64,000 nt of DNA, from contig NZ_SJPU01000003.1 in assembly GCF_007860105.1 (NCBI RefSeq), forward strand, positions 310,001 to 374,000. Reading direction: 5' to 3'. A program made the position numbers and the translations under genes. This DNA comes from Allorhodopirellula heiligendammensis. GTDB lineage: Bacteria > Planctomycetota > Planctomycetia > Pirellulales > Pirellulaceae. This document shows, in pieces, positions 15,961 to 43,409 of the stretch (position 1 is its first letter; every line of letters starts with the position of its first letter). The notes beneath the pieces were generated by a model, which saw only the letters and a list, made by a program, of their open reading frames with translations, was not told the DNA's origin and made no database searches.

Positions 15961-16169
15961 CTTCGACGCGAGCTCGAATCGCTGACGAATGGGCCTCTGA
16001 GGCATACCGTCAGAGGGTTGCTGTTTGGCGCGGGCGGGTCGCACGGCCTCCATCAACGGGGTGATTGTCAAACGCCGCCTGCATATCACGATGCGCTGGC
16101 ATTTACGTCTCGACCGGCGAAGTGACATTTTAGGTCGTGCCGGTTCGTTCCCCTCTTCTCGAAGCGAAT

Positions 16170-17528
16170 ATGTTTCAATATCTCAGCTCGCTCGCAAAGT
16201 GTCATCGAGGCAACTGCCGTGAGGTCACCGTCCTGACGGAAGTCTCTTTAACCGTCACGCTGCTGATGTTGGCTGCGGTAGGTTGCAAAACCCAGGACGG
16301 GCCACCCCCTCCGCCGCCGCCACCGCCAGCGGTTGAGGTCGCCACTGCTACGACTCGACAGATCATCGATTATCGTGAGTTCACCGGGCGTACCTCTGCG
16401 ATGGAGTCGGTCGAGATTCGCGCCCGTGTGAGCGGGTATCTTCTTCGCAGTCCGCGTAGTAAACCGAAGAAGAATGCAGCGGATTCGCCATCCCCTGACG
16501 ATCGCGAAAATGCCGATTGGCAGATCACAGCCAAGGAAGGTGAGTTGGTAAAAAAGGGGGCCCCGCTTTTTCTCATCGATCGCAAACCCTACCAACTCGC
16601 TTTGGACCAGTCGCTGGGATCCCTGAAAGCCTCCCAGGCCAGGCTCACGCAAGCGACTCAGGACCTATCTCGCTCTCGTGAGCTACTCGGACGGGACGCA
16701 ACCAGCGAGGCCGAATATGACCAAGCTGTTGCGGCGGTTGCCGAACTTCGTGGGCAGATTGAAAACCTGAAAGCAACCGCTGAGCGTAATTTACTGGACC
16801 TCACCTACACCCAAGTCGAGTCACCAATCGATGGGCTCCTCGGTAGTACCATGGTCACCGAAGGTAATTTGGTGGTCGCCGACACGACGGTGCTCACGAC
16901 GGTCGTGAGCACCGATCCTATCTATGTAGATTTCAATGTCGACGAGCAGTCGGTGCTGGATTATCGCAAGCGGATCGCGGCCGGTGAGGTCAAGAGTGCG
17001 CGGGATGTCAACATTCCCATCCGCATGGGGTTAGCAAATGAAGAGGGGTATCCTCATGAGGGAACCATCGATTTCGTCGATAACCGCACGGATCCCAACA
17101 CGGGTAACACCCGTATCCGGGGAGTCTTTGAAAACTCAACGGGGATCTTGTCACCAGGACTGTTTTCGCGAGTGCAAACGCCGTTCACGCAAGCGCATGA
17201 GGCGATTCTCATTCCATCGCCCGCCATCGCGATGGATCAACAGGGGCGCTACGTGATGGTTGTGGGTAGTGAGAACGAGGTCAGTCGACGCAGCGTGACA
17301 CTCGGTCAAATCATTGAGGACAAAACGGTGGTTACCGAAGGTCTGCAAGCGGGCGAACAAGTGATTATCTCGGGTTTACAAAAGGTGCGTCCCGGCGTCA
17401 CGGTGACGATCAAGGATCCCCAACCGCAACCCAAGATGACAGAAGACATGCCTTCCACAAACTCGGATGCGCCGCAGGCGTCTGAGCACACTGATGATGC
17501 AGCGCAGCAATCGGGAGAGTCAATTTGA
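16170..17528 (+). CDS. RND efflux periplasmic adaptor (membrane fusion lipoprotein), pump 1
   Basis: This is an AcrA/MexA-type adaptor. It has a lipobox (LMLAAVGC) that would anchor it to a membrane, a nine-proline tract, a lipoyl/barrel-sandwich domain, an alpha-helical hairpin (SQARLTQATQDLSRSRELLG) and beta-barrel/membrane-proximal domains ending with LQAGEQVIISGLQKVRPG. The open frame extends to a GTG at 16137, but the ATG at 16170 is a more likely start. A TTGA overlap links it to the pump gene. No TolC-type outer-membrane channel gene is nearby. Confidence 0.9.
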   Translation: MFQYLSSLAKCHRGNCREVTVLTEVSLTVTLLMLAAVGCKTQDGPPPPPPPPPAVEVATATTRQIIDYREFTGRTSAMESVEIRARVSGYLLRSPRSKPKKNAADSPSPDDRENADWQITAKEGELVKKGAPLFLIDRKPYQLALDQSLGSLKASQARLTQATQDLSRSRELLGRDATSEAEYDQAVAAVAELRGQIENLKATAERNLLDLTYTQVESPIDGLLGSTMVTEGNLVVADTTVLTTVVSTDPIYVDFNVDEQSVLDYRKRIAAGEVKSARDVNIPIRMGLANEEGYPHEGTIDFVDNRTDPNTGNTRIRGVFENSTGILSPGLFSRVQTPFTQAHEAILIPSPAIAMDQQGRYVMVVGSENEVSRRSVTLGQIIEDKTVVTEGLQAGEQVIISGLQKVRPGVTVTIKDPQPQPKMTEDMPSTNSDAPQASEHTDDAAQQSGESI

Positions 17529-20500
17529 TCTCCAACTTCTTCATCAACCGCCCCGTCGCCGCCAACGTGATCGCGTTGATGACCCTGATTTTGGGCGCGG
17601 TAGGGCTCTGGAATTTACCCGTCGAGCGGTACCCCAACATTACGCCGCCCACGATCCAGGTCACAGCCAGCTACCCGGGTGCAAGCGCCCAGGTGGTTAC
17701 CGATACCGTTGCGGCGCCACTGGAACAACAGATCAACGGCGTCGAAAACATGATGTACATGTCATCGACGTCTTCATCCAATGGCAGCTACTCGTTGACG
17801 GTCACCTTTGACGTGGGCACCGACCTCGAAGAGGCTCAGGTGCTGGTTCAGAACCGCGTGGCGCTCGCCGAACCGTTCTTGCCCGCCGACGTCCGCCAGC
17901 TTGGCATCTCGGTCAAGAAGCAATCGACCAATATTCTCCTCGCCGTCTCGCTAACGTCACCAGATGAATCCTTTGATAGCTTGTACATGTCCAACTACGC
18001 AACGCTGCGAGTCAAGGATGAACTCAGCCGCGTCGAAGGAGTCGGCGACGTCATGGTCAGCGGCACGGGCGCGTACAGCATGCGGATTTGGGTGGATCCC
18101 ACCAAGCTTGATGCTCGCAATCTCACATTCAATGACCTGCTCAGCCAATTAAGGCAACAGAACGTGCAGGTCGCCGCGGGGCAAATCGCGCAGCCGCCGT
18201 TGAACGATCCGCAGGCTTTTCAGTACACGATGACGGCACTCGGTCGATTGTCGACCCCGGAACAGTTTGAAGACATAATCGTCAATGTCGGCAGCGATGG
18301 CAGCCTGACTTACCTGCGCGATGTGGCTCGCGTGGAGCTCGGTGCGGAGACCTACGATACCTTCGCTCAGAAAGGTGGCATGCCCTCGGCCACTGTTCTG
18401 GTTTATCAACTTCCGGGCGCCAACGCCCTGGATGTAGCTGATCGCGTCAAAGCCGACATGGAGGCGCTCTCACAGAGCTTTCCCAAAGGTTTGGAATACG
18501 ACATTCCGTTCGACACCACCACATTCGTGTCATCGGCCATCCATGAAGTTTACAAGACGCTGTTTGAGGCGGGCGTCTTAGTACTCATCGTGATTCTTGT
18601 CTTCCTACAGGACTGGCGTGCCGTTCTGATCCCAGCGACCACCGTTCCTGTCACGATCATCGGCGCATTTGCGATCATGCCCCTGTTGGGCTTCTCGATC
18701 AACCTGTTGACGCTGTTCGGACTCGTACTCGCGATCGGCATCGTGGTCGATGACGCCATTGTGATCGTTGAGAATGCGGCGCACCATATTGAACGCGGTG
18801 AGGCACCCAAGGCCGCGACGGTGCGGGCGATGTCGGAAGTCACGGGGCCGGTGATCGGCATCACCGCAGTGCTGATGGCGGTGTTCATCCCGACCACATT
18901 CCTGGCGGGTATCACCGGACAGCTCTATCGGCAGTTTGCGCTAACGATTGCCGCAACCGCACTACTAAGTGCCATCAACGCGTTGACGCTCAAACCCGCA
19001 CAGTGCGCATTATGGCTGCGACCGGCCAAGGAGAATCACAAAAAATTCTTCCTCTCGCGGTGGTTCAACACGGTGTTTGGATGGGTGGAATCCGTCTATA
19101 CCGCCTGCGTGGCCGGAATGATTCGGGCATGGCCGATCATGTTGATCATTTTCGCGATCACACTCGGCGGCACCGTATGGTGGTACCAGAAAGTGCCTAC
19201 GGGGTTTCTGCCTACTGAGGATCAAGGTTACTTGATCGTGGCAGTGCAGTTGCCCGATGCAGCATCGCAAGACCGGACCCGCCACGTCGTTGAAGAGATC
19301 AACGGTATCCTCGCCGAACAACCGGGCGTCAAGACATGGTTTACGCTCGGTGGCCAATCACTACTCGAGGGCAGTCAGTCCTCCAACGCGGCGACAATGT
19401 TCATCGGCTTGCAGGATTGGGAGGATCGCACGACTGCGGACTTGCAACAGGGACATTTGATCGGCGAAATCACTCAAAAGTTTTCGGCGATTGAGGATGC
19501 CTTCATTCTGGTGATCCCTCCGCCTGCCATTCAGGGCTTGGGAACCAGCGGTGGATTCGAAATGCAGGTTGAAGATCGCGGTGGCGCGGGGCTGGTCGAA
19601 TTGCAGCAGGCCGTCAACGGTCTGCTGGCCGCCGCCGCAGAAGAGAAACAATTGCAACGAGTTAGCTCGACGTTCCGTGCGGGTGTGCCGCAGCTTTACG
19701 CGGATGTCAATCGCGATGAGGTGCTTAGCATGCAAGTGCCTCTGGGTGAAGTATTCACGACGCTGCAGTCCGCGCTGGGGTCGATCTACGTCAATGACTT
19801 CAACAAGTTCGGGCGAACCTACCGGGTCACACTACAAGCGGAATCGCAGTTTCGGGACAACGTCGATGATGTGCGTCGCCTGAACGTTCGCAACGCCTAC
19901 GGCGACATGGTTTCGCTGGGCAGTCTGATGACCATCGACGAGACCTTTGGCCCTCAAATCATCCGTAGATTTAACCTCTATCCGGCCGCCAATGTGACCG
20001 GTTCCGCAGCTCCAGGAGTCAGTTCTGGGCAAGCACTGCAATTGATGGCGGGGCTGGCCAAGGAGAACTTTCCCGAAGCGGTCTGGTACGACTGGAGTGG
20101 CGTCTCTTATCAGGAGAGCCAAGCCAAGGGTGAAGAGGTGTACATTTTCGGATTGGCGATCTTGATCGTTTATCTCGTGCTCGCGTTTTTGTACGAGAGC
20201 TGGGTATTGCCCCTGGCCGTCATTCTCGTCGTGCCTTTGGGTCTGCTGGGGACCGTCGCAGCAATTTCTCTGTTGGGGATGGATAACAATACCTACGTGC
20301 AAATCGGTGTCGTGCTGATCATTGCTCTGGCGAGCAAGAACGCGATCCTGATCGTTGAATTTGCGCGTGACCTGCGGATGCAGGGCAGGTCGATTCGGGA
20401 GTCCGCGGTGGATGCCGCCCGGATGCGTTTCCGTCCCATCCTGATGACATCTTTCGCGTTCATCCTGGGTGTTTTCCCGTTAGTCTTCGCCACTGGGGCC

Positions 20501-20659
20501 GCGGCAGCGAGCCGTCGTTCGTTGGGGACAGCTGTGTGCGGCGGCATGATTACCTCCACCGTCCTGGCTGTGTTCTTCACGCCTGTGTTCTTCGTCGTAT
20601 TTCAGTGGCTCAGTGAGTGTCGTGAGAAACGCGAGGATGATGCCACGGCAGGGGATTGA
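17525..20659 (+). CDS. RND multidrug efflux permease, pump 1
   Basis: This is a 1044-aa HAE1-type resistance-nodulation-division inner-membrane pump exporting hydrophobic compounds in exchange for protons. It begins MISNFFINRPVAANVIALM and has the duplicated 12-TM plan with two large periplasmic loops. TM4 contains the proton-relay motif GIVVDDAIVIVEN (adjacent Asp pair). The TTG start overlaps the adaptor stop. Substrate specificity is not readable. It is about 45-50% similar by eye to the second pump at 40263-43409, with conserved blocks throughout. Confidence 0.95.
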   Translation: MISNFFINRPVAANVIALMTLILGAVGLWNLPVERYPNITPPTIQVTASYPGASAQVVTDTVAAPLEQQINGVENMMYMSSTSSSNGSYSLTVTFDVGTDLEEAQVLVQNRVALAEPFLPADVRQLGISVKKQSTNILLAVSLTSPDESFDSLYMSNYATLRVKDELSRVEGVGDVMVSGTGAYSMRIWVDPTKLDARNLTFNDLLSQLRQQNVQVAAGQIAQPPLNDPQAFQYTMTALGRLSTPEQFEDIIVNVGSDGSLTYLRDVARVELGAETYDTFAQKGGMPSATVLVYQLPGANALDVADRVKADMEALSQSFPKGLEYDIPFDTTTFVSSAIHEVYKTLFEAGVLVLIVILVFLQDWRAVLIPATTVPVTIIGAFAIMPLLGFSINLLTLFGLVLAIGIVVDDAIVIVENAAHHIERGEAPKAATVRAMSEVTGPVIGITAVLMAVFIPTTFLAGITGQLYRQFALTIAATALLSAINALTLKPAQCALWLRPAKENHKKFFLSRWFNTVFGWVESVYTACVAGMIRAWPIMLIIFAITLGGTVWWYQKVPTGFLPTEDQGYLIVAVQLPDAASQDRTRHVVEEINGILAEQPGVKTWFTLGGQSLLEGSQSSNAATMFIGLQDWEDRTTADLQQGHLIGEITQKFSAIEDAFILVIPPPAIQGLGTSGGFEMQVEDRGGAGLVELQQAVNGLLAAAAEEKQLQRVSSTFRAGVPQLYADVNRDEVLSMQVPLGEVFTTLQSALGSIYVNDFNKFGRTYRVTLQAESQFRDNVDDVRRLNVRNAYGDMVSLGSLMTIDETFGPQIIRRFNLYPAANVTGSAAPGVSSGQALQLMAGLAKENFPEAVWYDWSGVSYQESQAKGEEVYIFGLAILIVYLVLAFLYESWVLPLAVILVVPLGLLGTVAAISLLGMDNNTYVQIGVVLIIALASKNAILIVEFARDLRMQGRSIRESAVDAARMRFRPILMTSFAFILGVFPLVFATGAAAASRRSLGTAVCGGMITSTVLAVFFTPVFFVVFQWLSECREKREDDATAGD

Positions 20660-22339: not shown

Positions 22340-23215
22340 TTGTCCACTGACGCTCGACGCGAACGGCTTCGCGACCATGTCCGCACTCAAGGGTTTGCGG
22401 CATTGGGCGAGCTGACGTCTATCCTTGGAGTCAGCGAGTCGACGGTTCGCCGCGACTTGGAGACCCTTGAGGATGCAGGCGAGGCACGGCGGACTCACGG
22501 TGGCGTGTATTGGACGGGGCAGTCGGAAACGATTACCACTTTCCGTGGCCATCGCGACGATGGCTGGCCTCGAAAGCAGGCAATCGGCCGCGCTGCTGCT
22601 GAATTGATTGACGACGGCGACACGATTCTGCTCGATGGCGGCAGCACGGTGTATGAATTGGCTCGATTGATTGTCAACCGACCGCTCCAGGTCGTGACCA
22701 ATTCACTGCCCGTGGCCCATTTGCTGTCCACGAGTGATTCCATCGACTTGATCATGATCGGTGGCTGTGTTCGTCGTCGCACTTCGGTGACGATCGGGCC
22801 GATGGCCGATGCGATGTTGGCGGATATTAACGTTGCCAAAACGTTCCTGTCCGTCGCAGGAGTTACCGAGCGAGGCTTTTTCAATAGCGACATGATGCTG
22901 GTCGAGAGTGAACGCGCGATGCTGGCGGCGGCCGATCAAACGATCGTGTTGGCTGACAGCAGCAAGTTTGGCAAAGTCAGCCTGTCCCAAATATGCGGAT
23001 TGAATGACGTGGGCAGGGTGGTTACCGACAGTGAATTGGATAATCGCTGGATCCAGACATTCGATTCCTGTCTCGCCGAACTAATGTTAGCTACGTCGAG
23101 CAACAGCGATACCCAACCCACCTCTGCGGCACCGTCATCGACCAGTTGCCCGCCGCTGCCTCCGCAATCCTCCTCTATTTCCTCTAACCAAGCCGATTCG
23201 GCCAACTCCTTATGA
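22340..23215 (+). CDS. DeoR-family transcriptional regulator of the BMC operon
   Basis: This 291-aa protein has the DeoR N-terminal winged helix ([20 protein letters not shown]) and a C-terminal sugar-phosphate-sensing domain with [30 protein letters not shown] and [18 protein letters not shown]. DeoR-type proteins usually repress sugar operons until a phosphorylated intermediate binds. Here the likely effector is a deoxyketose phosphate or downstream product. The start is TTG. Its C-terminal ~35 residues are a Ser/Pro-rich tail. Its stop overlaps the pduL start (ATGA), tying it to the BMC operon. Confidence 0.92.
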
Positions 23216-23952
23216 GCATGACAGTCGATCGAATGCAGATCGAGGCGCTCGTCCGCAGCGCGATTCGCCAAGCCCAGTCTCAGGGTGCCCCCGCTGCACA
23301 TCAAGCGAGCTCCACTTCAATTGAGTCGCCGCTGGGGTGGGTTGATGGCAAGCCCAATCTCCGCGTTAGTATTTCGGCACGCCACTGTCACCTGACAGAT
23401 GAGCACGTTGAGATTCTCTTTGGCAAAGGCAGCGTGCTGGAGCCGGACAAGGATCTCTATCAAGACGGCTTTTTTGCAGCCAAGCAGACCGTGATGGTCG
23501 TTGGTCCGCGGCGCCGGATGCTCCCGAGTGTCCGTGTACTCGGCCCGACGCGTCCCTTCAGCCAGTTAGAGCTGGCATTCACCGATTCCATTTCATTGGG
23601 CATCAAAGCTCCCGTTCGACACAGCGGCAAGATTGAAGGAACACCTGGTTGTGTGCTGGTCGGACCGGCCGGCTCGGTGCAGCTTGATCAAGGCGTGATT
23701 CGTGCGGCGCGTCACGTCCACATGAACGATCACGATGCGGCGCACTTCGGTGTCGCCAACGGTGACATGATGCAACTCGTCGTCACGAGCAACGACTGCA
23801 GCATGACTTTCGACGATGTTCTCGTGCGTGCCGACAAGGCTGCCAAGCTCGAAGTCCATATTGATACTGACGAAGGCAATGCATGCAACTTGGACGCCGC
23901 CAGTGCAGTACACCTTCAACCGATGCCCAAGCCGTGTGCGTGCGGGCATTAA
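23212..23952 (+). CDS. pduL: PduL-type phosphotransacylase of the BMC
   Basis: PduL exchanges CoA and phosphate on acyl groups, recycling CoA inside the shell. The 246-aa sequence has the two metal-binding HxH motifs, H58-C-H60 ([13 protein letters not shown]) and H168-V-H170 ([13 protein letters not shown]), plus [18 protein letters not shown]. Residues about 5-20 ([20 protein letters not shown]) form a short amphipathic helix joined by a Ser/Ala/Pro-rich linker. This looks like an encapsulation peptide. In this pathway it would convert lactoyl-CoA to lactoyl-phosphate. It is translationally coupled to the DeoR gene. Confidence 0.93.
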
Positions 23953-24041: not shown

Positions 24042-24344
24042 ATGGCAAAAATTAAAGAAGCGCTCGGCATGATCGAGACCAAAGGGTTTGTCGCCCTGGT
24101 CGAAGCGTCCGACGCAATGATGAAGGCTGCCAATGTGCAGTTCCTCGGTTGGGACAAAGTCGGCGCTGGTCTGGCGGCCGTCTTCGTCACCGGCGACGTC
24201 GCGGCTGTGAAGGCGGCTACTGATGCCGGAGCTGCAGCAGCAGGCCGGATTGGCGAAGTCGTCAGCGTGCAGGTCATTCCTCGACCCCACGCTGACCTCG
24301 AGAAGGTCATGAAGCTGCCCGCCGCCCCGGCCGTGAAGAAATAA
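24042..24344 (+). CDS. BMC-H hexameric shell protein 1
   Basis: This is a canonical single-domain BMC protein of the PduA/EutM type (100 aa). It begins [20 protein letters not shown] and contains a pore loop KVGAGLAAV, then [16 protein letters not shown] and [13 protein letters not shown]. Hexamers tile the facets of the shell and conduct small metabolites through the central pore. It has a short Ala/Pro/Lys tail. It is adjacent to a second BMC-H gene, separated by a pyrimidine-rich spacer. Confidence 0.97.
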
Positions 24345-24414: not shown

Positions 24415-24690
24415 ATGATTATGAATGATGCAATCGGTTTGATCGAAACCAAAGGTCTGCTTCCTCTCATCGAAGCGACCGACGCGATGGCCAAGGCGGC
24501 CAACGTGGAGATCGTCAAGCGTGTCGACCTCGGTGGCGGTTTGGTCACGACCGTCGTCAGCGGCGACGTCGGCAGCGTTCGCGCGGCTGTCGAAGCGGGT
24601 GCTGCAGCGGCTGCCCAAATCGGCGAACTGGTCAGCAGCCACATCATCCCACGTCCTGCCGACGGCTTGGTTGCAGCTTACTTTAGCTGA
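24415..24690 (+). CDS. BMC-H hexameric shell protein 2
   Basis: This is a second 91-aa BMC-domain shell protein: AIGLIETKGLLPLIEATDAM, pore loop DLGGGLVTT, VSGDVGSVRAAVEAGAAAA and SHIIPRPADGLVAA. The pore loop differs from the first copy (DLGGG versus KVGAG), suggesting different pore charge. Two ATGs are available (24415 and 24421), giving MIMND or MND; either fits. Confidence 0.96.
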   Translation: MIMNDAIGLIETKGLLPLIEATDAMAKAANVEIVKRVDLGGGLVTTVVSGDVGSVRAAVEAGAAAAAQIGELVSSHIIPRPADGLVAAYFS

Positions 24691-24732: not shown

Positions 24733-25971
24733 ATGCTCATCCTCGTTGCGAATCTGGGTTCGACCAGTTTCAAATACAAACTGCTCGACGTCAGCGGTGA
24801 CTTGCAGTCGTCGGACGTTCGTCCCGATTCACGCGTGCTCGCACGCGGAGCGGTCGAACGCATCGGAGACGCATCGACGAGTCGTTGTGAGGTCACGATC
24901 GGTGATTTTCACGACGTTTCGGAGATGCCTGTTCCCGATCACGGCGTCGCTGTGCAGGCGTGTTTGGACCAGTTGACGCATCCGCAGCATGGTTGTGTGA
25001 AGGATCCCTCCGACGTCGCTGCGATTGGCTTCAAGGCTGTCCATGGTGGACGCAAGAGCGGAACGTTTTTAGTGGATGACGATTTACTCGTTGCGATGGC
25101 GGAGATGAACGCGGCTGCACCCGCGCACAACCCGCCCTATATCGCGGCGATGAAGTTGTTACGAGAGCGATTCCCAGACCTGCCCTTGGTCGCCGCTTTT
25201 GAAACTGAGTTCCACGACACCATTCCCGAAGCCCGTCGGCTGTACGCCGTCCCTCCGGGGTGGCGAGAGGATTTCCAGGTTCAAAAATGGGGATTTCATG
25301 GCGCAAGCCATCGGTTCATCGCCGAGCGAGCCGCGGAGCTACTCCAACGCGATGATGCACGAATTGTCTCCTGTCACCTGGGTGGCAGCAGTTCATTGAC
25401 CGCCATCCAAAGCGGTCAGAGCGTGATGACGACAATGGGGATGACTCCACAGACAGGTTTGCCGCAGAACAACCGGGTCGGCGATTTTGATCCGTTCGCA
25501 CTGCCACTACTGATCGAGCGAACTGGCAAGTCACTGGAGCAGTTGTTAACTCAGCTAGCGAGCGAAGGAGGACTCAAGGGGCTCAGTGGTCGTGGCAGTG
25601 ACCTTCGTGATATCGAAGCGGCTGCTGATGAGGGTGACGAACGCTCCCAACTCGCCTTGCAGGTTTTTGTCGAAGAAATTCGTCGGCACCTCGGTGGCAT
25701 GGTGGTCGCCATGGGCGGCCTTGATGCCATCGTGTTCACCGGCGGAATCGGAGAAAACTCGGAAGTTGTCCGCGAAGCCGTTTGCAAGAACCTAGAGTTC
25801 CTTGGTGTCGAACTCGATAGCGTACGGAATCAAAACCACCGCGAGCATGCTAAGCAAAGCGGTGGCGAAGATCGTCTGAATAGCGACTCCAGCGGAGTCC
25901 AAATTTGGGTCATCCCCACCAACGAAGAATGGGTTGTCGCCAAGCGAACAAAACAAGCGGTTGGCCTCTAG
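24733..25971 (+). CDS. ackA: Acetate/propionate/lactate-type kinase
   Basis: AckA-family kinases make ATP from acyl-phosphates. The 412-aa protein has the family's LILVANLGSTSFKYKLLD start, VVHGG-like AVHGGRKSG, KWGFHGASHRFI, ISCHLGGSSSLTAI-like SCHLGGSSSL, and VFTGGIGENSEVVRE. In this operon its likely substrate is lactoyl-phosphate made by PduL. I see no encapsulation helix at either end, so it may act outside the shell. An AAGGA ribosome-binding site precedes the ATG by about ten bases. Confidence 0.95.
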   Translation: MLILVANLGSTSFKYKLLDVSGDLQSSDVRPDSRVLARGAVERIGDASTSRCEVTIGDFHDVSEMPVPDHGVAVQACLDQLTHPQHGCVKDPSDVAAIGFKAVHGGRKSGTFLVDDDLLVAMAEMNAAAPAHNPPYIAAMKLLRERFPDLPLVAAFETEFHDTIPEARRLYAVPPGWREDFQVQKWGFHGASHRFIAERAAELLQRDDARIVSCHLGGSSSLTAIQSGQSVMTTMGMTPQTGLPQNNRVGDFDPFALPLLIERTGKSLEQLLTQLASEGGLKGLSGRGSDLRDIEAAADEGDERSQLALQVFVEEIRRHLGGMVVAMGGLDAIVFTGGIGENSEVVREAVCKNLEFLGVELDSVRNQNHREHAKQSGGEDRLNSDSSGVQIWVIPTNEEWVVAKRTKQAVGL

Positions 25972-26345: not shown

Positions 26346-27785
26346 ATGCAATTTGACGAAACTCTGATTCGCAATGTCGTCTCCGCGGTGCTCGCGGAGG
26401 TCGGTCCCATGCCGGCCGGAGCAGCACAGCCGCTCACTCGCAACGTGCCCCCCGGCGCGGGAAAACACGGCATCTTCACGGATGTCAACGAAGCTGTGGC
26501 GGCAGCTAGGTCGGCCCACGAGCAATTGCGTAGCCGCACGATGGAGGAACGCAAGCAGGTCATCGACATCATTCGCCGGATCAGTATCGATCAGTGCGAA
26601 GAGCTTGGTCTGATGGAGATGCGGGAGACGGGTATCGGTCGGCCAGAGCATAAGATTGAAAAGCTGCGTACCCTTGGTGAACTTTCGCCCGGCACTGAGT
26701 TCCTTGAGACCAAGGCATTCAGCGGCGATCACGGACTCGCGGTAATCGAGCGTGCTCCTTTCGGCGTGATTGCTGCGATCACTCCGGTCACCCATAGCTT
26801 GCCCACGATCACAGGCAACGCGGTGAGCATGATCGCCGGTGGAAACGCGGTTGTCGTCAACCCGCATCCATCGGGCAAAAAAGTTGCCGCTGAAGGGGTG
26901 CGACGCTTCAACGAAGCGATCGCGGCGGAGGTGGGAATTGATAATCTGATTTGCGTGATTGCTGAACCCACTCTGGAGACGGCGGACGCTCTGTTCGCTC
27001 ACCGTGACATCGCATTGATTTGCGTGACCGGCGGTCCCGCAGTCGGACGGGCGGCACTTCGCAGCGGCAAGCGTGCGATCGTTGCCGGTCCCGGTAACCC
27101 ACCTGTGGTAGTCGATGAGACGGCCGATCTCGACAACGCCGCTCGTTGCATCATTCAGGGAGCTTCGTACGATAACAACCTGCTATGCATTTCCGAGAAG
27201 GAGGTGTTTGTGGTCGAGAGTGTATTCGATGAGATGATGGCAGCCATGCGACGGGCCGGAGCGTTGCAGCTCGATGCCGCTCAAATCGCGACCTTGACGT
27301 CTCAAGCGATCACCAAAGTTGGTGACGATCAACATGACGCCGCAGCCAAAGAATTTATCGGCCAGGACGCTAGTGTGCTCGCACGTGCTGCGGGTGCAAA
27401 CCCGCCCGCAGGTTGCGAGCTAGTGTTTGGCGAGACCGACGAGCACCACCCCTTCGTTACTGTCGAGCAGATGATGCCGTTCGTACCATTCGTGCGAGCT
27501 CGCAATGTTGATCATGCGATCGCGATGGCGAAACATTATGAGCACGGATTCCGACATACCGCGATTATCCACTCACGCAACGTTCGCAACATGACAAAGA
27601 TGGGCCGGGAACTCGACACGACGCTCTACGTAAAGAACGGCCCGTGCATGGCGAGCCTCGGCTTGGGTGGCGAAGGATACCTTTCGTTCTCGATCGCGGG
27701 CCCCACGGGCGAAGGCGTGACCAGTCCCAACACGTTCACGCGGGAACGCCGCTGCAGCATGGTCGACGAATTGCGGGTGGTCTAG
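26346..27785 (+). CDS. CoA-acylating aldehyde dehydrogenase of the BMC (PduP-like)
   Basis: The 479-aa enzyme oxidises an aldehyde with NAD+ and CoA to acyl-CoA; here lactaldehyde to lactoyl-CoA is inferred. Catalytic C281 lies in DNNLLCISEKE, matching PduP/EutE. Cofactor-binding segments include AAITPVTHSLPTITGNA and VTGGPAVGRAALRSGKRAIV. Residues 1-20 (MQFDETLIRNVVSAVLAEVG) form an amphipathic helix followed by a Pro/Ala-rich linker, a classic N-terminal encapsulation peptide. It sits between two BMC-P genes. Confidence 0.95.
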   Translation: MQFDETLIRNVVSAVLAEVGPMPAGAAQPLTRNVPPGAGKHGIFTDVNEAVAAARSAHEQLRSRTMEERKQVIDIIRRISIDQCEELGLMEMRETGIGRPEHKIEKLRTLGELSPGTEFLETKAFSGDHGLAVIERAPFGVIAAITPVTHSLPTITGNAVSMIAGGNAVVVNPHPSGKKVAAEGVRRFNEAIAAEVGIDNLICVIAEPTLETADALFAHRDIALICVTGGPAVGRAALRSGKRAIVAGPGNPPVVVDETADLDNAARCIIQGASYDNNLLCISEKEVFVVESVFDEMMAAMRRAGALQLDAAQIATLTSQAITKVGDDQHDAAAKEFIGQDASVLARAAGANPPAGCELVFGETDEHHPFVTVEQMMPFVPFVRARNVDHAIAMAKHYEHGFRHTAIIHSRNVRNMTKMGRELDTTLYVKNGPCMASLGLGGEGYLSFSIAGPTGEGVTSPNTFTRERRCSMVDELRVV

Positions 27786-28092: not shown

Positions 28093-28818
28093 TTGCCTCT
28101 CCCACCCGTGTCTCGCATCGTTGCTCGCCCAGCCGATTCCGCCCTTCCGGACACCTCAATCGATATTGAGGCAATCGTCCGTCGCGTGCTGATGCAGTTG
28201 CGCCCCGAAACTGCGAGCGGCGACGCGAGTGCTCGGAGCGAGCCAGCGGTGCCCACGTCACTTTCATTCGACGCGGGTGTTTGCTCGCTCGAAGATATCA
28301 ACACCATCGACGTATCGATCAAGCACTTGCAGCTCTCCAGTCGCACGGTGGTTACCCCAGCGGCCCGAGACGAGTTGCGCCGCCGCGGGATCGTCACTGA
28401 AAAATCAGCTGCCACGTCGAACTCCGACCGCCATCGTTCAAAGCCCCAGCCGGGCACGCGAGCAATCAACTTGCAATGTGATGGCGAAGTTGCAGAACAC
28501 TTGTTCGCAGCCGTCAAGAAGCAGGTTCGCACTCGCGGTGTCCGACTGTGCGATCGAGCATCAGTCGAAGTGATTTTATCGAGCCGGCCTGCGACGACGG
28601 CGCATCAGCGGACCGGCCCGGATCGCTGTGTCGTTGCGATCAATCGAGTGGATGACGTTTCCCGGTTCATCGCCGAACTCAGTCCCAACACCTTCGTGCT
28701 CGACATCGCGCACCTGCACTTGGTAGCCATCGCCACCACGATAGCCTCCATTGCCAAACCAACGTCGCAAGCGTTCACATCGATACCCAGGATCACCGTA
28801 GCCGGAGGCCTGTCATGA
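28093..28818 (+). CDS. BMC-associated protein of unknown function with an N-terminal encapsulation-like helix
   Basis: I do not recognise the 241-aa protein's function. Residues about 16-36 include IDIEAIVRRVLMQLRPET, an amphipathic helix closely resembling the N-terminal helices of PduL and the aldehyde dehydrogenase. A segment about residues 78-101 (SSRTVVTPAARDELRRRGIV) resembles a TP-A-RD-L-GI motif I associate with other BMC accessory proteins. The C-terminal half (RCVVAINRVDDVSRFIAELS, then FVLDIAHLHLVAI) faintly recalls RpiB/LacAB folds, without confirmed catalytic residues. The start is TTG 28093 or GTG 28108. Its stop overlaps the next BMC-P start. Luminal location is inferred. Confidence 0.8.
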   Translation: MPLPPVSRIVARPADSALPDTSIDIEAIVRRVLMQLRPETASGDASARSEPAVPTSLSFDAGVCSLEDINTIDVSIKHLQLSSRTVVTPAARDELRRRGIVTEKSAATSNSDRHRSKPQPGTRAINLQCDGEVAEHLFAAVKKQVRTRGVRLCDRASVEVILSSRPATTAHQRTGPDRCVVAINRVDDVSRFIAELSPNTFVLDIAHLHLVAIATTIASIAKPTSQAFTSIPRITVAGGLS

Positions 28819-29170: not shown

Positions 29171-30043
29171 ATGGATAATATTCACAAGATCAAACAAGAC
29201 ATGTGCGACATCGGCAGCCGGATTTACAACCGGCAATTCGCTGCCGCTAACGACGGTAACATCACTGTCCGCATCAGTGAGAACGAAGTCTTGTGCACAC
29301 CGACGTTGCACTGCAAAGGGTTCCTCAAACCCGACGACATTTCATTGGTGGATATGACGGGCAAACAACTCTCCGGACGCAAAAAGCGATCCAGCGAAGC
29401 ACTGCTGCATTTAGAAATCTACAAACAACGCGATGACATTCGTAGCGTCGTCCACTGCCATCCGCCGCACGCGACAGCGTTTGCGATCGCACGCGAGCCG
29501 ATTCCGCAGTGCATTCTGCCGGAAGTCGAGGTGTTTCTCGGCGACGTGCCCATCACCAAGTACGAAACTCCTGGCGGGCAGTCCTTCGCCGACACAATCA
29601 TCCCGTACGTTAACAAAACCAACGTGATGATCCTCGCCAACCACGGCACCGTTTCCTATGGCGAAACAGTCGAGCAGGCGTACTGGTGGACTGAGATTCT
29701 CGACGCCTATTGCCGCATGTTGATGCTTGCCAAGCAGCTCGGCAATGTGTCCTACCTCAACGAAGAGAAGTCGCGAGAACTGCTCGACCTCAAGCAAAAG
29801 TGGGGTTATGCCGATCCCCGCAATACTCCCGATTACAAGGACTGCGATATCTGCGCCAACGATATCTTCCGGGAGTCGTGGGCCGAGACCGGTGTTGAGC
29901 GTCGCGCCTTCGCACCACCGCCTCCGATCAAGACATCGGGAGATGCCAGCAGCAACGGTAAACCTGTTTTGCCCGCCGGCGTCGATGAAGCTCAGCTCGT
30001 CAAGGCGATCACCGACGAGGTCATTCGACAAATGGGAAGATAA
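29171..30043 (+). CDS. Class II aldolase of the BMC (fuculose/rhamnulose-1-phosphate type)
   Basis: This 290-aa zinc aldolase has metal ligands H95 and H97 (SVVHCHPPHATAFA) and H158 (LANHGTVSYG), with a Glu in SSEALLHLEIY. It is predicted to cleave L-fuculose-1-P or L-rhamnulose-1-P into DHAP and lactaldehyde, as described for the planctomycete BMC. After the catalytic domain (about residue 225) comes a Pro/Ser/Gly linker and a C-terminal amphipathic helix (DEAQLVKAITDEVIRQMGR) that looks like an encapsulation peptide at the opposite end from the other cargo enzymes. Confidence 0.95.
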   Translation: MDNIHKIKQDMCDIGSRIYNRQFAAANDGNITVRISENEVLCTPTLHCKGFLKPDDISLVDMTGKQLSGRKKRSSEALLHLEIYKQRDDIRSVVHCHPPHATAFAIAREPIPQCILPEVEVFLGDVPITKYETPGGQSFADTIIPYVNKTNVMILANHGTVSYGETVEQAYWWTEILDAYCRMLMLAKQLGNVSYLNEEKSRELLDLKQKWGYADPRNTPDYKDCDICANDIFRESWAETGVERRAFAPPPPIKTSGDASSNGKPVLPAGVDEAQLVKAITDEVIRQMGR

Positions 30044-30205: not shown

Positions 30206-31141
30206 ATGAAAATTTCAATCATTGGCGGTGGCGGACTCGTCGGTTCATGCGCCGCATATGCGCTCCAGTGTGGCGGCTTGGTAAACGAGATCGCGCTGTT
30301 GGACGTCAACGAAGAACTCGCCGTCGGGCATGCATTGGACCTGCGTCATGGCTCGACGAGCATTGCCAACCAAACGTTTGCCGGCGGCGGATATGAGCAC
30401 ATTCCAAGCAGCGACATCATCTGCATTACCGCGGGACTGCGTCGCAAGCCCGACGAGTCACGCTTGGACTTGATCAATCGGAACACCGATTTGTTCATGC
30501 AGATCTTGCGCGATGTCAAAGCTGCGGGGCCCAAGCCTTCGGCGATCGTGCTGGTAGTTAGCAACCCCGTCGACATTCTCACCTATGTGGCGGCGGATAA
30601 ACTCGATCTGCCGGTCGGCCAGGTTGTCGGCCTCGGTACGCAGCTTGATACGATTCGCTTCTGCTCGCTCATCGCAGAGCAACTGCAGGCACCACCCACA
30701 CAGACCAAGGCGTTGATCCTTGGTGAGCACGGTGAGTCGATGGTGCCAATTTGGAGCAGCGCGACGATCGCTGGGTTGCCTTTGGAAAAGTATCCTGGGT
30801 GGACGCCCGCCATGGCCGGAGAGCTCTTCACGCGCACGCGGGGCAGTGGTGCCGAAGTGATTAAGCGCAAAGGCGGAGCTGGCTTTGCCGTCGGCATCGC
30901 GATCCGCGACTGTGTCGATGCGATCGTGCTCGATTCACACGCAGTGCTCCCCGTCAGCAGCGTGCAAAACGGTTGCTACGGAATCCGAGACGTGGCCCTG
31001 AGCGTTCCGACCGTGCTCGGGCGAACCGGCGTGCAAGCCACGATGGAGATTGACTTGTGGCCGAAAGAGGTGCAGGGGATTCGTGCCAGTGGTGCGGCGC
31101 TGCGTAAGACTCTCGACACCGTCATGCAACGGGTCAAATAA
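30206..31141 (+). CDS. Lactate/malate dehydrogenase-family enzyme of the BMC operon
   Basis: The 311-aa protein has the NAD-binding motif IGGGGLVGSCAAY, the loop GLRRKPDESRLDL, VSNPVDILTY, GTQLDTIRF and catalytic LGEHGESMVPIW. The residue just before KP is Arg, as in malate dehydrogenases, but ESRLDL, GTxLDT and EHGES are lactate-dehydrogenase-like, so substrate choice is ambiguous. In this pathway it may regenerate NAD+ or handle lactate. No terminal encapsulation helix is apparent. A 160-bp spacer separates it from the aldolase, so it may have its own promoter. Confidence 0.9.
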   Translation: MKISIIGGGGLVGSCAAYALQCGGLVNEIALLDVNEELAVGHALDLRHGSTSIANQTFAGGGYEHIPSSDIICITAGLRRKPDESRLDLINRNTDLFMQILRDVKAAGPKPSAIVLVVSNPVDILTYVAADKLDLPVGQVVGLGTQLDTIRFCSLIAEQLQAPPTQTKALILGEHGESMVPIWSSATIAGLPLEKYPGWTPAMAGELFTRTRGSGAEVIKRKGGAGFAVGIAIRDCVDAIVLDSHAVLPVSSVQNGCYGIRDVALSVPTVLGRTGVQATMEIDLWPKEVQGIRASGAALRKTLDTVMQRVK

Positions 31142-38873: not shown

Positions 38874-40262
38874 ATGAGACTTGCTGAAACAACGAGAGTT
38901 CCTTCCCAGTATGCCCCTCCCCGCAGTCGGTGGGTCGTGCTGTTCGGGCTGCTTGCCGTGGTCGGTTGCAGTCGCACGGCGCCACAGGGGGCCGCGCCGC
39001 CCCCGATGCCGGAAGTCACGGTTGCCAAGCCAATTGTCAAGAAAATCGTTGAATGGGATTCTTATTCCGGCAGGCTCGAGCCGATCGAATTCGTCGAAGT
39101 TCGCAGCCGCGTGGGTGGTTATCTTCAGTCGTTGCACTTTGAGGAGGGCGAGATCGTTAATAAAGGCGATCTGCTCTTCGTAATTGATCCGCGGCCCTTC
39201 GATGCCGAGTTGAAATCGATGGAGGCCGCGATGAGTCAAGCCAATGCTCAGCTCCTCCAGGCCCAGGCCGGGGTCGCTGAAGCGGAGGCCCAGCAGTTGC
39301 AATCCGATGCTTCCGTGAAGTTGGCCGATACGCGTCTGAAACGAGCGCGAACCTTGATGAGCCGCGACGCGACTAGTCAAGACGAGTTGGACCAACGAGA
39401 GGCTGAGTTCGATCAAGCCAATGCCGATCAAGCAGCGAGCCGCGCCAAAGTGAACTCCGCAAAGGCGATGATTGATGCCGCCCAGGCAGCAATCGAGTCC
39501 GCGAGTGCGGGCCTCGAAGCGGCAAAACTCAACGTCACCTACTCCAAGATCATCGCGCCCATCACAGGCCGGATCAGCAGTAATTTTGTTGACCAGGGCA
39601 ACCTCGTTAGCGGGGGTGCGTCAGCAACCGCGACACTGTTGACGACCATCACGTCAGTGGAACCGATTTACTGTACGTTTGACGTCAACGAACAGGAAGT
39701 TCTCAAATACATTCGCTTGGCCGCCTCGGGGAAACGTGGGAGCTCGCGTGAAGTCCGCAACCCTATCTATCTCGGACTTGTCGACGAGCAAGGGTTCCCA
39801 CATCAAGGACACATTGACTTTGTCGACAACCGCTTCGACCCTGCCACGGCAACCATGCGCGCTCGGGGGATCTTCCCCAATAAAAATCAGGTGCTGTTTC
39901 CGGGGATGTTCTCGCGGATTCGCATTCCAGGAAGTGCTCCTTATGAAGCTGTTTTGATTCCTGATTCTGCAATCGGAACCGACCAAGCCTCGCAGTTTGT
40001 GTTCATTGTTGTGGACGGATTGATTGAGCGAAAACAAGTTGAGCTCGGTCCGCTGGTGCATGGACTGAGAGTGGTTCGCGAAGGGCTATCTGGGGATGAG
40101 TCTTTGGTCATCGAGGGGCTGCTGAAAGCGCGACCTGAGTTGCAAGTCAAAGTGGATCAGCAGGAAATCGAGGTGATCGAAGACGGCCTGCCCGATGAAT
40201 ATGATCCCGTCCCCAAAGAGGAGTGGCTTTCTCTCCAGGTCGATAGTGAGGAGGCAAAGTAA
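38874..40262 (+). CDS. RND efflux periplasmic adaptor (membrane fusion lipoprotein), pump 2
   Basis: The 462-aa AcrA/MexA-type adaptor has a lipobox (LLAVVGC at about residue 27-33), a Pro-rich linker, and a barrel-sandwich domain (VGGYLQSLHFEEGEIVNKGD). A long Ala/Gln-rich helical hairpin (AMSQANAQLLQAQAGVAEAE) and beta-barrel segments follow. It ends exactly before the pump ATG with no spacer. It lies under the divergent marR-regulated promoter. No TolC-type gene is adjacent. Confidence 0.93.
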   Translation: MRLAETTRVPSQYAPPRSRWVVLFGLLAVVGCSRTAPQGAAPPPMPEVTVAKPIVKKIVEWDSYSGRLEPIEFVEVRSRVGGYLQSLHFEEGEIVNKGDLLFVIDPRPFDAELKSMEAAMSQANAQLLQAQAGVAEAEAQQLQSDASVKLADTRLKRARTLMSRDATSQDELDQREAEFDQANADQAASRAKVNSAKAMIDAAQAAIESASAGLEAAKLNVTYSKIIAPITGRISSNFVDQGNLVSGGASATATLLTTITSVEPIYCTFDVNEQEVLKYIRLAASGKRGSSREVRNPIYLGLVDEQGFPHQGHIDFVDNRFDPATATMRARGIFPNKNQVLFPGMFSRIRIPGSAPYEAVLIPDSAIGTDQASQFVFIVVDGLIERKQVELGPLVHGLRVVREGLSGDESLVIEGLLKARPELQVKVDQQEIEVIEDGLPDEYDPVPKEEWLSLQVDSEEAK

Positions 40263-43200
40263 ATGAAATTCCCTCACTTCTTTATCGAACGCCCCATCTT
40301 CGCGACCGTGCTATCGTTTTTGATCGTGCTCGTTGGTGGGATCACCTATGTGTCACTGCCGGTATCCCAGTATCCCAACGTCGCTCCGCCCACGATTCTC
40401 GTGCGTGCGAGCTACCCTGGGGCAACGCCGCAGGTCATCGCTGACACGGTTGCCACTCCGATCGAACAGGAGATGAACGGCGTCGACGATATGCTGTACA
40501 TGGAATCGTCTTCGAGTGCCGACGGCACCATGCAGTTGACGGTTACCTTCAAGCTTGGCACGGATCTGGATGATGCTCAGGTGCTCGTGCAAAACCGGGT
40601 GGCCGTGGCGTTGTCGAAGCTGCCTGAGCAGGTGCGGCAAATTGGTGTCACGACCACCAAGCAGATTCCCGACATGCTGATGGTGGTGCATTTGAAGTCG
40701 CCCGACGAGAGTCGCGATGAGCTCTACATCAGTAACTACGCATTCTTGCGAGTTCGCGATGCCCTGATGCGGCTTGACGGGGTCGGTGAGATCCGCATTG
40801 CTGGCGGTAATGAATACGCGATGCGAATTTGGCTGGATATCGAAAAAATGGCGCACGTCGATCTGACGGCGGGCGACGTGATCGCGGCGATTCGTGGCCA
40901 AAATGCGCAAGTCGCGGCGGGCGTTATCGGGCAACCTCCGATTGATTCCAGCGGTGATTTCCAGCTCAATGTGACCACCCATGGTCGCCTGATCGAAACG
41001 GAGGAGTTCGACGATATCATCGTCAAGCGTGGTGAGGACGGTCGCGTTACGCGGCTCAGCGACGTAGCACGCGTTGAGCTTGGCGCGCAGGACTATTCCC
41101 GTTTGAGCTACCTCGATGGCAAGCCCGCGATTGCCGTGCTCGTGTATCAGCGTCCGGGAACCAATGCGGTCGATACCGCTGCGGAAGTCAAGCAAACGAT
41201 GCAGGATATGAGCGAGACCTTTCCTGAGGGGATTGGCTATGAAATTGCTTACAACCCAACCGACTTTGTGGAAGAATCCATCGCGGAAGTGTTTTTCACG
41301 CTGCTGATTACGACGGCCTTCGTGGTGTTGACAGTGTTCTTGTTTCTACACCATTGGCGACCGACAATTATTCCGGTGGTGGCGATTCCGATTTCTCTGA
41401 TCGGCACCTTTGCGATCATGCAGTTGCTCGGGGTCACCCTCAACACGCTATCGCTCTTTGGGCTCGTTTTGGCGATCGGGATCGTCGTGGATGATGCGAT
41501 CGTTGTGGTGGAAAACGTCGAGCGGCTCATCGCGGAAGGGCTCTCGCCTCGCGAGGCTTCGCACAAAGCAATGGATGAGGTCGGTTCGGCCCTGATTGCA
41601 ACCACCCTGGTGTTGATCGCCGTGTTCGTTCCGACTGTTTTCATTCCCAGCATCAGTGGGAAGTTTTATCAGCAGTTCGCATTGACGATCTCAATATCGA
41701 CTGCGATCTCGACATTTGTATCGTTAACCTTGACCCCTGCGTTGTGCGCGCTCTTGCTGCAACCGCGAAACAAGGAATTGAGCCGTTCGGGCCGCATCGC
41801 CGATTTTCTATTCGGCTGGTTCTTCCGTTTGTTTAACCGGACCTTCGATGCGACGAGCAACGTCTATGCGAGCATCGTTTCGCGGTTAGTGCGTGTATCG
41901 GCGCTCATCCTGTTGATGTATGCCGGCCTCTTGGTCGCGACTGGATTCAGTTTCTCATTGGTGCCCACCGGATTCATCCCGGAGCAAGATCAAGGATATG
42001 TCATCGTCGCCATTCGCTTGCCCGACGGTGCTGCCTTATCACGCACCAATGAGGTTACGAAGGAGGTTGCGGCGATGGGCTTGAAGATCGATGGGGTTGC
42101 TCATGCGGTTGGTATCGTGGGGTTGTCCGGGTCGACTTTCACGATCAGTCCGAACGCTGCAGTTGCGTTTTTACCTCTTGAGGACGCCAAGGAACGTGCC
42201 GCTCGAGACCGTGGGGTTGAAAAAATTGTCGCCGATATGCGGGCAGCGGTGTCAACCATCAACGAGGCGGAGGTGTTTATTATCCCGCCTCCGCCGGTGC
42301 GTGGGATCGGTCGCGGCGGTGGTTTCAAGATGTATGTCCAGGACCGCAGCGGTGCGGGCTCGCGAGTCCTCAATCAGGTTGCTGAAGAGATGGTCGGCAA
42401 AGGAAACCAGGAGCCAGGAGTCGCGCAGGTCTTCACGAACTTTCGGATGAGCGTCCCACAGGTCTACGCGGACGTCGATCGTACCAAAGCGGAGATGCTA
42501 GACGTTCCCGTCAACCGAGTGTTTGAGGCACTGCAGGTCTACCTCGGTTCGGTCTACGTCAACGACTTTAACCTGCTCGGCCGAACCTACCGGGTGGTCG
42601 CACAGGCGGAGCCTGAGTTTCGTGATGAGCCATCGGATATTTTGAAACTGCGAACCCGCAGCGCAAGTGGTGCAACCGTGTCGTTGGGCTCGGTTGTCGA
42701 GGTCGATCAAATCGCTGGGCCGGATCGATTGGTGAGGTTCAACCTCTATCCTGCCGCTGACGTCAATGGAAGTACCATGCCGGGTTTCAGTACCGGACAG
42801 TCGCTGGCGTCGATGGAGAATCTCGCAGCGAGCACATTGCCTCCCGGTTTCGGATACGAGTGGACAGAACTGGCCTACCAAGAGAAACAGGCCGGCAACA
42901 CGATCGTGTATCTATTTCCCCTGGCTGTATTGTTCGTGTTCCTGGCGTTGGCGGCACAGTACGAGAGTTGGTTATTGCCATTGGCAATCGTGCTGATTGT
43001 GCCGCTGTGTCTATTGTTCGCCATTATTGGAATTTGGTTTCGCGGAATGGATAACAATATCCTGACACAAATTGGATTCATTGTGCTCATTGGACTCGCG
43101 TGCAAGAACGCGATTCTGATTGTTGAATTTGCCAAAGCCGAAGAAGACAAGGGCAAAGACCGCTTTACCGCAGCAGTCGATGCCTGTCGGATGCGCCTGC

Positions 43201-43409
43201 GTCCCATTTTAATGACGGCGTTCTCGTTCATCCTTGGCGTCATCCCGCTATTGGTTGCTACCGGTGCCGGCTTTGAGATGCGCCGCGTGCTCGGTACGGC
43301 CGTGTTCGCCGGGATGTTGGGCGTGACGATCTTTGGGCTGTTTTTAACGCCAGTGTTCTACGTCGTGCTTCGACGCTTTGCCAAGAAGCCTGCCTCAGAC
43401 GCATCATAG
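40263..43409 (+). CDS. RND multidrug efflux permease, pump 2
   Basis: This is a 1048-aa HAE1-type inner-membrane proton-drug antiporter. It begins MKFPHFFIERPIFATVLSFL and has the TM4 relay motif GIVVDDAIVVVEN, the porter-loop segment FIIPPPPVRGIGRGGGFKMY and the C-terminal KNAILIVEFAKAEEDKGKDR. The start codon follows the adaptor stop directly. It is likely induced when the MarR protein releases its operator. Substrate is not predictable. Confidence 0.96.
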   Translation: MKFPHFFIERPIFATVLSFLIVLVGGITYVSLPVSQYPNVAPPTILVRASYPGATPQVIADTVATPIEQEMNGVDDMLYMESSSSADGTMQLTVTFKLGTDLDDAQVLVQNRVAVALSKLPEQVRQIGVTTTKQIPDMLMVVHLKSPDESRDELYISNYAFLRVRDALMRLDGVGEIRIAGGNEYAMRIWLDIEKMAHVDLTAGDVIAAIRGQNAQVAAGVIGQPPIDSSGDFQLNVTTHGRLIETEEFDDIIVKRGEDGRVTRLSDVARVELGAQDYSRLSYLDGKPAIAVLVYQRPGTNAVDTAAEVKQTMQDMSETFPEGIGYEIAYNPTDFVEESIAEVFFTLLITTAFVVLTVFLFLHHWRPTIIPVVAIPISLIGTFAIMQLLGVTLNTLSLFGLVLAIGIVVDDAIVVVENVERLIAEGLSPREASHKAMDEVGSALIATTLVLIAVFVPTVFIPSISGKFYQQFALTISISTAISTFVSLTLTPALCALLLQPRNKELSRSGRIADFLFGWFFRLFNRTFDATSNVYASIVSRLVRVSALILLMYAGLLVATGFSFSLVPTGFIPEQDQGYVIVAIRLPDGAALSRTNEVTKEVAAMGLKIDGVAHAVGIVGLSGSTFTISPNAAVAFLPLEDAKERAARDRGVEKIVADMRAAVSTINEAEVFIIPPPPVRGIGRGGGFKMYVQDRSGAGSRVLNQVAEEMVGKGNQEPGVAQVFTNFRMSVPQVYADVDRTKAEMLDVPVNRVFEALQVYLGSVYVNDFNLLGRTYRVVAQAEPEFRDEPSDILKLRTRSASGATVSLGSVVEVDQIAGPDRLVRFNLYPAADVNGSTMPGFSTGQSLASMENLAASTLPPGFGYEWTELAYQEKQAGNTIVYLFPLAVLFVFLALAAQYESWLLPLAIVLIVPLCLLFAIIGIWFRGMDNNILTQIGFIVLIGLACKNAILIVEFAKAEEDKGKDRFTAAVDACRMRLRPILMTAFSFILGVIPLLVATGAGFEMRRVLGTAVFAGMLGVTIFGLFLTPVFYVVLRRFAKKPASDAS

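Follow-up and report, generated by a model that had tools for sequence, protein, structure and literature searches.

In the 64,000-nucleotide stretch of Allorhodopirellula heiligendammensis DNA analysed here (contig NZ_SJPU01000003.1, positions 310,001 to 374,000; referred to as the window), a gene on the forward strand at 28108..28818, called X below, belongs to a bacterial microcompartment (BMC) locus of the PVM type. We propose that X encodes a structural adaptor of this fucose/rhamnose microcompartment that works like PduM, a reading to which we give a probability of roughly 55%. The proposal draws on an N-terminal encapsulation-type helix, on a short conserved module that recurs on other microcompartment proteins and appears related to a module of PduM, and on an RpiB/LacAB-fold body in which the isomerase active site has been lost. 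Judged from gene order, X is probably pvmL.

The open reading frame (ORF) of 28093-28818 (+) has a TTG start, encodes 241 amino acids and includes SIDIEAIVRRVLMQLRPET. This frame, and the observation made on it in the initial annotation, proved to be real, but the start has to be moved: full-length relatives of X begin at or near the codon equivalent to GTG 28108, mostly with (V/M)S, whereas TTG 28093 is not conserved and the five residues that follow it have no counterpart in these relatives. We therefore take X as a protein of 236 amino acids from the conserved GTG start, and all residue numbers are counted from GTG 28108. As annotated, X is translationally coupled to a BMC-P gene, since its stop overlaps the ATG of BMC-P3 (28815..29120, +) in an ATGA (28815..28818, +). 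Named relatives are "hypothetical" proteins from Rhodopirellula, Allorhodopirellula and Aporhodopirellula. The earlier interpretation holds in that X is a BMC protein whose N-terminus bears an encapsulation-type helix and whose C-terminal half is RpiB-like; the label "unrecognised" does not, as X occupies a fixed slot in a known type of locus. That annotation did not cover the conserved module between the helix and the RpiB-like domain, nor that X has lost RpiB catalytic residues and shows a relation to PduM.

The TPxARD module and the N-terminal helix

The TPxARD module (28258..28404, +; residues 51-99) has a predicted local distance difference test score (pLDDT) of about 72-84. It is common to X, PduM, the TIGR02536 protein, a flavoprotein and BMC RpiBs, and weakly also to EutT and EutQ. 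We searched 1621 ORFs from nine loci and the window with a hidden Markov model (HMM) of the module (49 columns covering residues 51-99, 104 rows). In the independent loci, the model matched the C-terminus of a Rahnella flavoprotein (E 8e-10), the C-terminus of a TIGR02536 protein (8e-5) and the EutT of C. difficile (6e-3); in L071-L073, which had been fetched through an X-profile match and so are not independent, it matched RpiBs (6e-7 and 3e-5) and a 98-residue protein (7e-7). The NCBIfam model TIGR02536 in turn matches P0046, a relative of X, over the module (E 1e-3), and weaker PduM and EutT matches occur in other members. When nine module proteins were left out one at a time, with same-type kin kept in training, 9/9 were recovered at E 0.04 or better, among them the EutT of E. 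coli (8e-4) and of C. difficile (9e-3), each with the other EutT kept in training, and EutQ (4e-3).

All eight PduM sequences, which were outside the training set, match the module in the stretch 131-157, with E values from 2.5e-7 to 0.054 that are below 0.02 in six of them; the best unrelated ORF in this test reached an E of 0.15. A scan of the entire Kosakonia plasmid gave PduM as its sole module match at E≤1 (0.0015). Profile-profile comparison aligned X and PduM over the module only (probability 45%, P 2.2e-4), the comparison of PduM with a mixed module profile (A6) gave a probability of 93%, and 0/200 column-shuffled PduM alignments reached the score of X with PduM. These comparisons suggest that the modules of X and PduM are related.

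The module is tied to microcompartments and recurs on microcompartment proteins. A search of 35 whole genomes (three with X, 13 with a PVM-type aldehyde dehydrogenase in which X had not been found, and 19 with neither) returned four module matches at E≤0.01, namely the three known X genes and a match in G734 (4.6e-4) that adjoins BMC-P and BMC-H genes. We also inspected 21 loci with weaker matches, consisting of G734 and 20 regions hand-chosen from 94 matching genomes: BMC-H or BMC-P genes were present in the fetched stretch of 15, and of the other six, five were RpiBs and one was an ACT-type protein. Four named records have the gene for PduM, for a flavoprotein (in two records) or for a TIGR02536 protein directly before a BMC-P gene, and all four products carry the module at the C-terminus. 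The second match on the Ilyobacter plasmid, murI (E 0.057), speaks against module specificity; it and the third match on the Rahnella plasmid (0.17, a frame of 53 amino acids) look like chance. The PduM and TIGR02536 family models both gave a below-cut-off match in 1/14 control genomes, that of E. coli, which we guess to be EutT or EutQ. In other planctomycete loci (L161, L166, L167, L169, L170, L171, L173, L175, L176, L179 and L180), the module is combined with a C-terminal domain that ends in MHR-(I/L/V); BMC genes are in view in 10/11 of them, the domain is ACT by Pfam in one scanned example (L073), and several have a neighbouring small module protein, partly Cys-rich.

The encapsulation-type helix precedes the module (28156..28209, +; residues 17-34), with a predicted helix at residues 20-31 (mean pLDDT 69 over residues 21-30) whose amphipathicity was judged by eye only. 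An HMM built from the X helix alone (101 rows, threshold 5 bits) was run on the open frames of 18 PVM loci and the window. It reached the threshold towards the N-terminus of 13/18 PduL and 12/19 aldehyde dehydrogenase frames, and in 0/164 other frames of the same loci (acetate kinase, aldolase, BMC-H, BMC-P, DeoR and lactate dehydrogenase). A chance helix can thus be rejected at family level, though the window's own pair stays below 5 bits: its PduL scores 2.7 bits and its aldehyde dehydrogenase below zero, which weighs against the likeness in the window itself. The annotated resemblance of the helix to those of PduL and the aldehyde dehydrogenase is therefore a fair pattern across the family and a weak match in the window. 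As in encapsulation peptides, a flexible linker follows (pLDDT below 50 for residues 32-49). With its likeness to the PduL and aldehyde dehydrogenase helices of PVM loci, X has the N-terminal encapsulation-type helix of the PduM family. X would be located in the lumen.

The RpiB-like domain and its natural loss

The C-terminal half of X has an RpiB/LacAB fold (28447..28758, +; residues 114-217). The resemblance noted earlier is real as a fold, though neither PF02502 nor Pfam in general gives an RpiB match in the window's X; some relatives do match PF02502, for example P0046 with 32 bits against a cut-off of 24.7. We aligned 127 X domains with 18 cytosolic and nine BMC RpiBs in a single run of MAFFT, the domains having diverged very far, and considered Asp9, His10, Cys66 and His99, which we take to be the catalytic residues of RpiB, together with Arg133 and Arg137, presumably the phosphate-binding arginines. 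In this alignment, the X domains keep Asp9 in 1/127, His10, Cys66 and His99 in 0/127 each, Arg133 in 14/127 and Arg137 in 44/127. The cytosolic RpiBs keep Asp9, His10, Arg133 and Arg137 in 18/18, Cys66 in 16/18 and His99 in 17/18, and the nine BMC RpiBs keep all of these residues except Cys66, which is Asp in 9/9. The catalytic residues have thus been lost in X. The nine BMC RpiBs are module-bearing RpiBs of other planctomycete loci (L162-L165, L168, L172, L174, L177, L178), which read DGAGIGS, with Asp at the position of the catalytic Cys66. An ordinary isomerase was rejected on the lost catalytic residues and on two other PF02502 genes above the cut-off in the window's genome. In an RpiB-domain tree with 61 taxa, a long branch splits X from the cytosolic and BMC RpiBs; because the tree did not place X, it is the domain and the gene order that point to a possible descent from a working BMC RpiB.

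Natural forms that have the helix and the module and lack the RpiB domain exist. Such an X stands in the same slot in 14 genomes, of which eight belong to family f7, three to genus g50, two to g12 and one to g2; we take these as two to four separate losses. These forms came from 24 hand-picked low-scoring genomes and two loci fetched before; their open frames span 83-211 amino acids from stop to stop, the coding part being shorter, and their coordinates leave at most some 100 bases before BMC-P3. We compared the window and four relatives with one another (10 pairs) by the ratio of nonsynonymous to synonymous differences per site (pN/pS). It is lowest in the RpiB-like domain (0.31), reaches 0.47 in the helix, 0.48 in the module and 0.51 in the tail, and rises to 0.86-0.87 in the linkers (0.86 in the one behind the helix); these ratios are crude because pS is near saturation (0.58-0.73). 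Amino-acid identity averages 70% over the RpiB-like domain, 59% over the helix and 52% over the module.

The purifying selection on the domain in the window's genus would also suit an enzyme whose RpiB fold has a new active site for a compound of the fucose/rhamnose pathway, either a sugar phosphate or an aldehyde, as would the numerous polar residues that do not vary across 16 close relatives and the BMC RpiBs with intact Asp9, His10, His99, Arg133 and Arg137 that lie between BMC-P genes elsewhere. We consider this unlikely, given the lost RpiB catalytic residues, the two other PF02502 genes, the 14 genomes in which X has no RpiB domain, and the four columns that are invariant across 27 diverse X members, all of which lie outside the domain (three in the module, one in the helix). 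Quite unlikely, in our view, is a metabolite sensor or regulator whose RpiB fold binds a sugar phosphate, e.g., fuculose-1-phosphate, and reports to the shell or the enzymes. The fold is kept and constrained, the ACT fold is frequently used in ligand sensing, and a module protein of another planctomycete BMC locus has a C-terminal ACT domain (PF13740, 1e-10), with similar proteins in further loci; but the phosphate-binding arginines are mostly lost in X, and the 14 genomes without the domain count against a sensor as well.

Occurrence of X and its proposed adaptor function

The PVM locus type and the slot of X are already known, and the slot is fixed. Among 37 hand-chosen PVM loci, most selected for an X match and four for having none, X is present in 33; it lies between BMC-P2 and BMC-P3 in 32 of these, and the contig ends in the 33rd. 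A survey of 396 genomes of the order, with seven candidates per genome scored for X, recovered X in 314 genomes and the PVM-type aldehyde dehydrogenase in 322 (E≤1e-100). Counted by hand, 305 genomes have both, nine only X (three of these matches are weak, E ~1e-4) and 17 only the dehydrogenase (four with weaker scores of 1e-108 to 1e-129, which may not be PVM). A single scan of genome contigs for X, which did not extend to X of Verrucomicrobiota, yielded 13 loci, every title being planctomycete. One sub-family of X (L066, L067, L074; named equivalents L181-L193, with planctomycete titles) has a conserved PPxGTCxG stretch and a WWxDG motif, neither of which was seen in the window's type of X. 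The least probable of the alternatives is that X is what remains of a BMC RpiB in decay, retained through slow loss alone: catalytic residues, domain and even the whole gene have been lost in some lineages, but X accompanies the dehydrogenase in 305/322 genomes, helix and module outlast the RpiB domain in 14 genomes, and the pN/pS values below 1 in the structured parts (0.31-0.48) disfavour plain decay, though a pS so close to saturation calls for caution.

We therefore return to X as a structural adaptor. The N-terminal helix would anchor X in the enzyme core. A second contact would come from the TPxARD module, whose partner is most likely the shell (perhaps the BMC-P vertices, whose genes flank X) or else another core protein. 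With two such contacts, X could make shell and core assemble together. The RpiB/LacAB domain without isomerase active site would serve as a body or binding surface that is dispensable in some lineages, and this body would be interchangeable, being a live RpiB, a dead RpiB, a flavoprotein, the body of PduM, or none. X shares helix and module in kind with PduM, and the most economical reading is that X plays in PVM the part that PduM plays in Pdu.

Several observations weigh against this proposal. X is absent from three of the four inspected loci of dehydrogenase-only genomes (G040, G044, G453), where BMC-P3 directly follows BMC-P2 (the fourth, G547, ends at a contig edge), and whole-genome scans of 13 of the 17 gave no module at E≤0.01; X is therefore not essential everywhere. 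In G451, X consists of helix and RpiB tail without the module, and in G693 of the module without a clear helix. The RpiB-like domain, the most constrained part, must have some use in the window's genus. In the first module search, an unrelated ORF (E 0.013) scored above EutT (0.09) and EutQ (0.18) of E. coli, which are thus the weakest module members, and as both are enzymes by annotation, the module alone does not mean "structural". The module is C-terminal in PduM and mid-chain in X, the predicted PduM structure (pLDDT 45) is unreliable and too poor for a fold comparison, and a detail of the PduM linker model, the binding of PduM to the PduB N-terminus, is disputed in PMC12108088.

More tentatively, the module may be a microcompartment-specific docking domain. 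PduM, X/PvmL, the TIGR02536 protein and the flavoprotein could then form one functional class in which helix and module surround a body that can be exchanged; their genes lie next to a BMC-P gene, and the proteins would couple core and shell, perhaps at the vertices. EutT, EutQ, ACT and RpiB proteins might enter or be anchored via the same module. If X, the TIGR02536 protein, the flavoprotein and BMC RpiBs do share a module, and EutT and EutQ more weakly so, one short deletion would make core-shell coupling testable across compartment types; the forms of X that naturally consist of helix and module could serve engineering as a minimal unit. In the literature searched, as far as its text was available and with subscription papers outside its scope, we found no description of a dead RpiB in PVM, of the module or of the PduM link.

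The locus and its relation to known systems

The window's locus is of the PVM type, which is defined by gene content (PMC4207490) and serves fucose and rhamnose degradation (PMC4207490 and PMC8217296): it holds one aldolase, one aldehyde dehydrogenase, one PduL, two BMC-H and three BMC-P genes. All on the forward strand, a DeoR-type regulator (22340..23215) is followed by PduL phosphotransacylase with an N-terminal helix (23212..23952; PF06130, 1.2e-70), BMC-H shell proteins 1 (24042..24344; PF00936, 1.1e-26) and 2 (24415..24690; PF00936, 2.2e-27), an acetate-kinase-type protein (24733..25971), BMC-P1 (26023..26340; PF03319, 2.1e-28), the CoA-acylating-type aldehyde dehydrogenase (26346..27785; NF011927, 1.9e-189) and BMC-P2 (27793..28047; PF03319, 6.8e-21); the regulator and the kinase were assigned unscanned, by reading and from the published PVM gene set. 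Behind X come BMC-P3 (PF03319, 2.3e-15), the class II aldolase that is the PVM signature enzyme (29171..30043) and a lactate/malate dehydrogenase-type enzyme (30206..31141). By eye, the aldolase has a C-terminal amphipathic helix (DEAQLVKAITDEVIRQMGR), likely a C-terminal encapsulation peptide, on which the X-helix HMM gave no score reaching 5 bits. RND-type efflux operons (membrane fusion protein and transporter, by reading) lie on both flanks of the locus (16137-20659 and 38874-43409). The PVM cluster of Planctopirus limnophila is given as pvmABDEGHIJKLMNO in PMC11958385, where gene deletion and a promoter inducible by rhamnose are also reported for this species.

Among known proteins, PduM (TIGR04493/PF15953), a structural protein of the Pdu microcompartment, is the closest parallel. 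Like X, it has an N-terminal helix (MLDMIVSRVITLL in Kosakonia), which according to PMC12108088 acts as a signal sequence, a module probably related to that of X, and a gene directly 5' of a BMC-P gene; the bodies differ, being RpiB-like in X and of another kind in PduM. TIGR04493 and PF15953 match neither the window's X nor anything in the window's genome, and some X relatives give weak, sub-threshold matches to them in the module (best E 0.024 for PF15953 and 0.037 for TIGR04493). RpiB/LacAB isomerases (PF02502) share the C-terminal fold with X, which lacks their catalytic residues and adds the helix and the module. The planctomycete BMC RpiBs listed above have module and RpiB domain in the same order as X, several with N-terminal helices by eye, and in L162, L165, L172 and L174 the order BMC-P/RpiB/BMC-P is the same kind of slot; their active site is intact but for the Cys66 to Asp exchange, and the tree shows no descent of X from them. 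For BMC-associated RpiBs, the SPU-type loci of PMC8217296 serve as comparison. EutT and EutQ resemble X in a module-like stretch, N-terminal in their case, and differ from it as annotated enzymes without an encapsulation helix in front. The TIGR02536 protein and the flavoprotein share with X the module, at their C-terminus, and the place before a BMC-P gene, with a differing central domain, and the TIGR02536 and Ilyobacter proteins also have, by eye, an N-terminal helix as in X.
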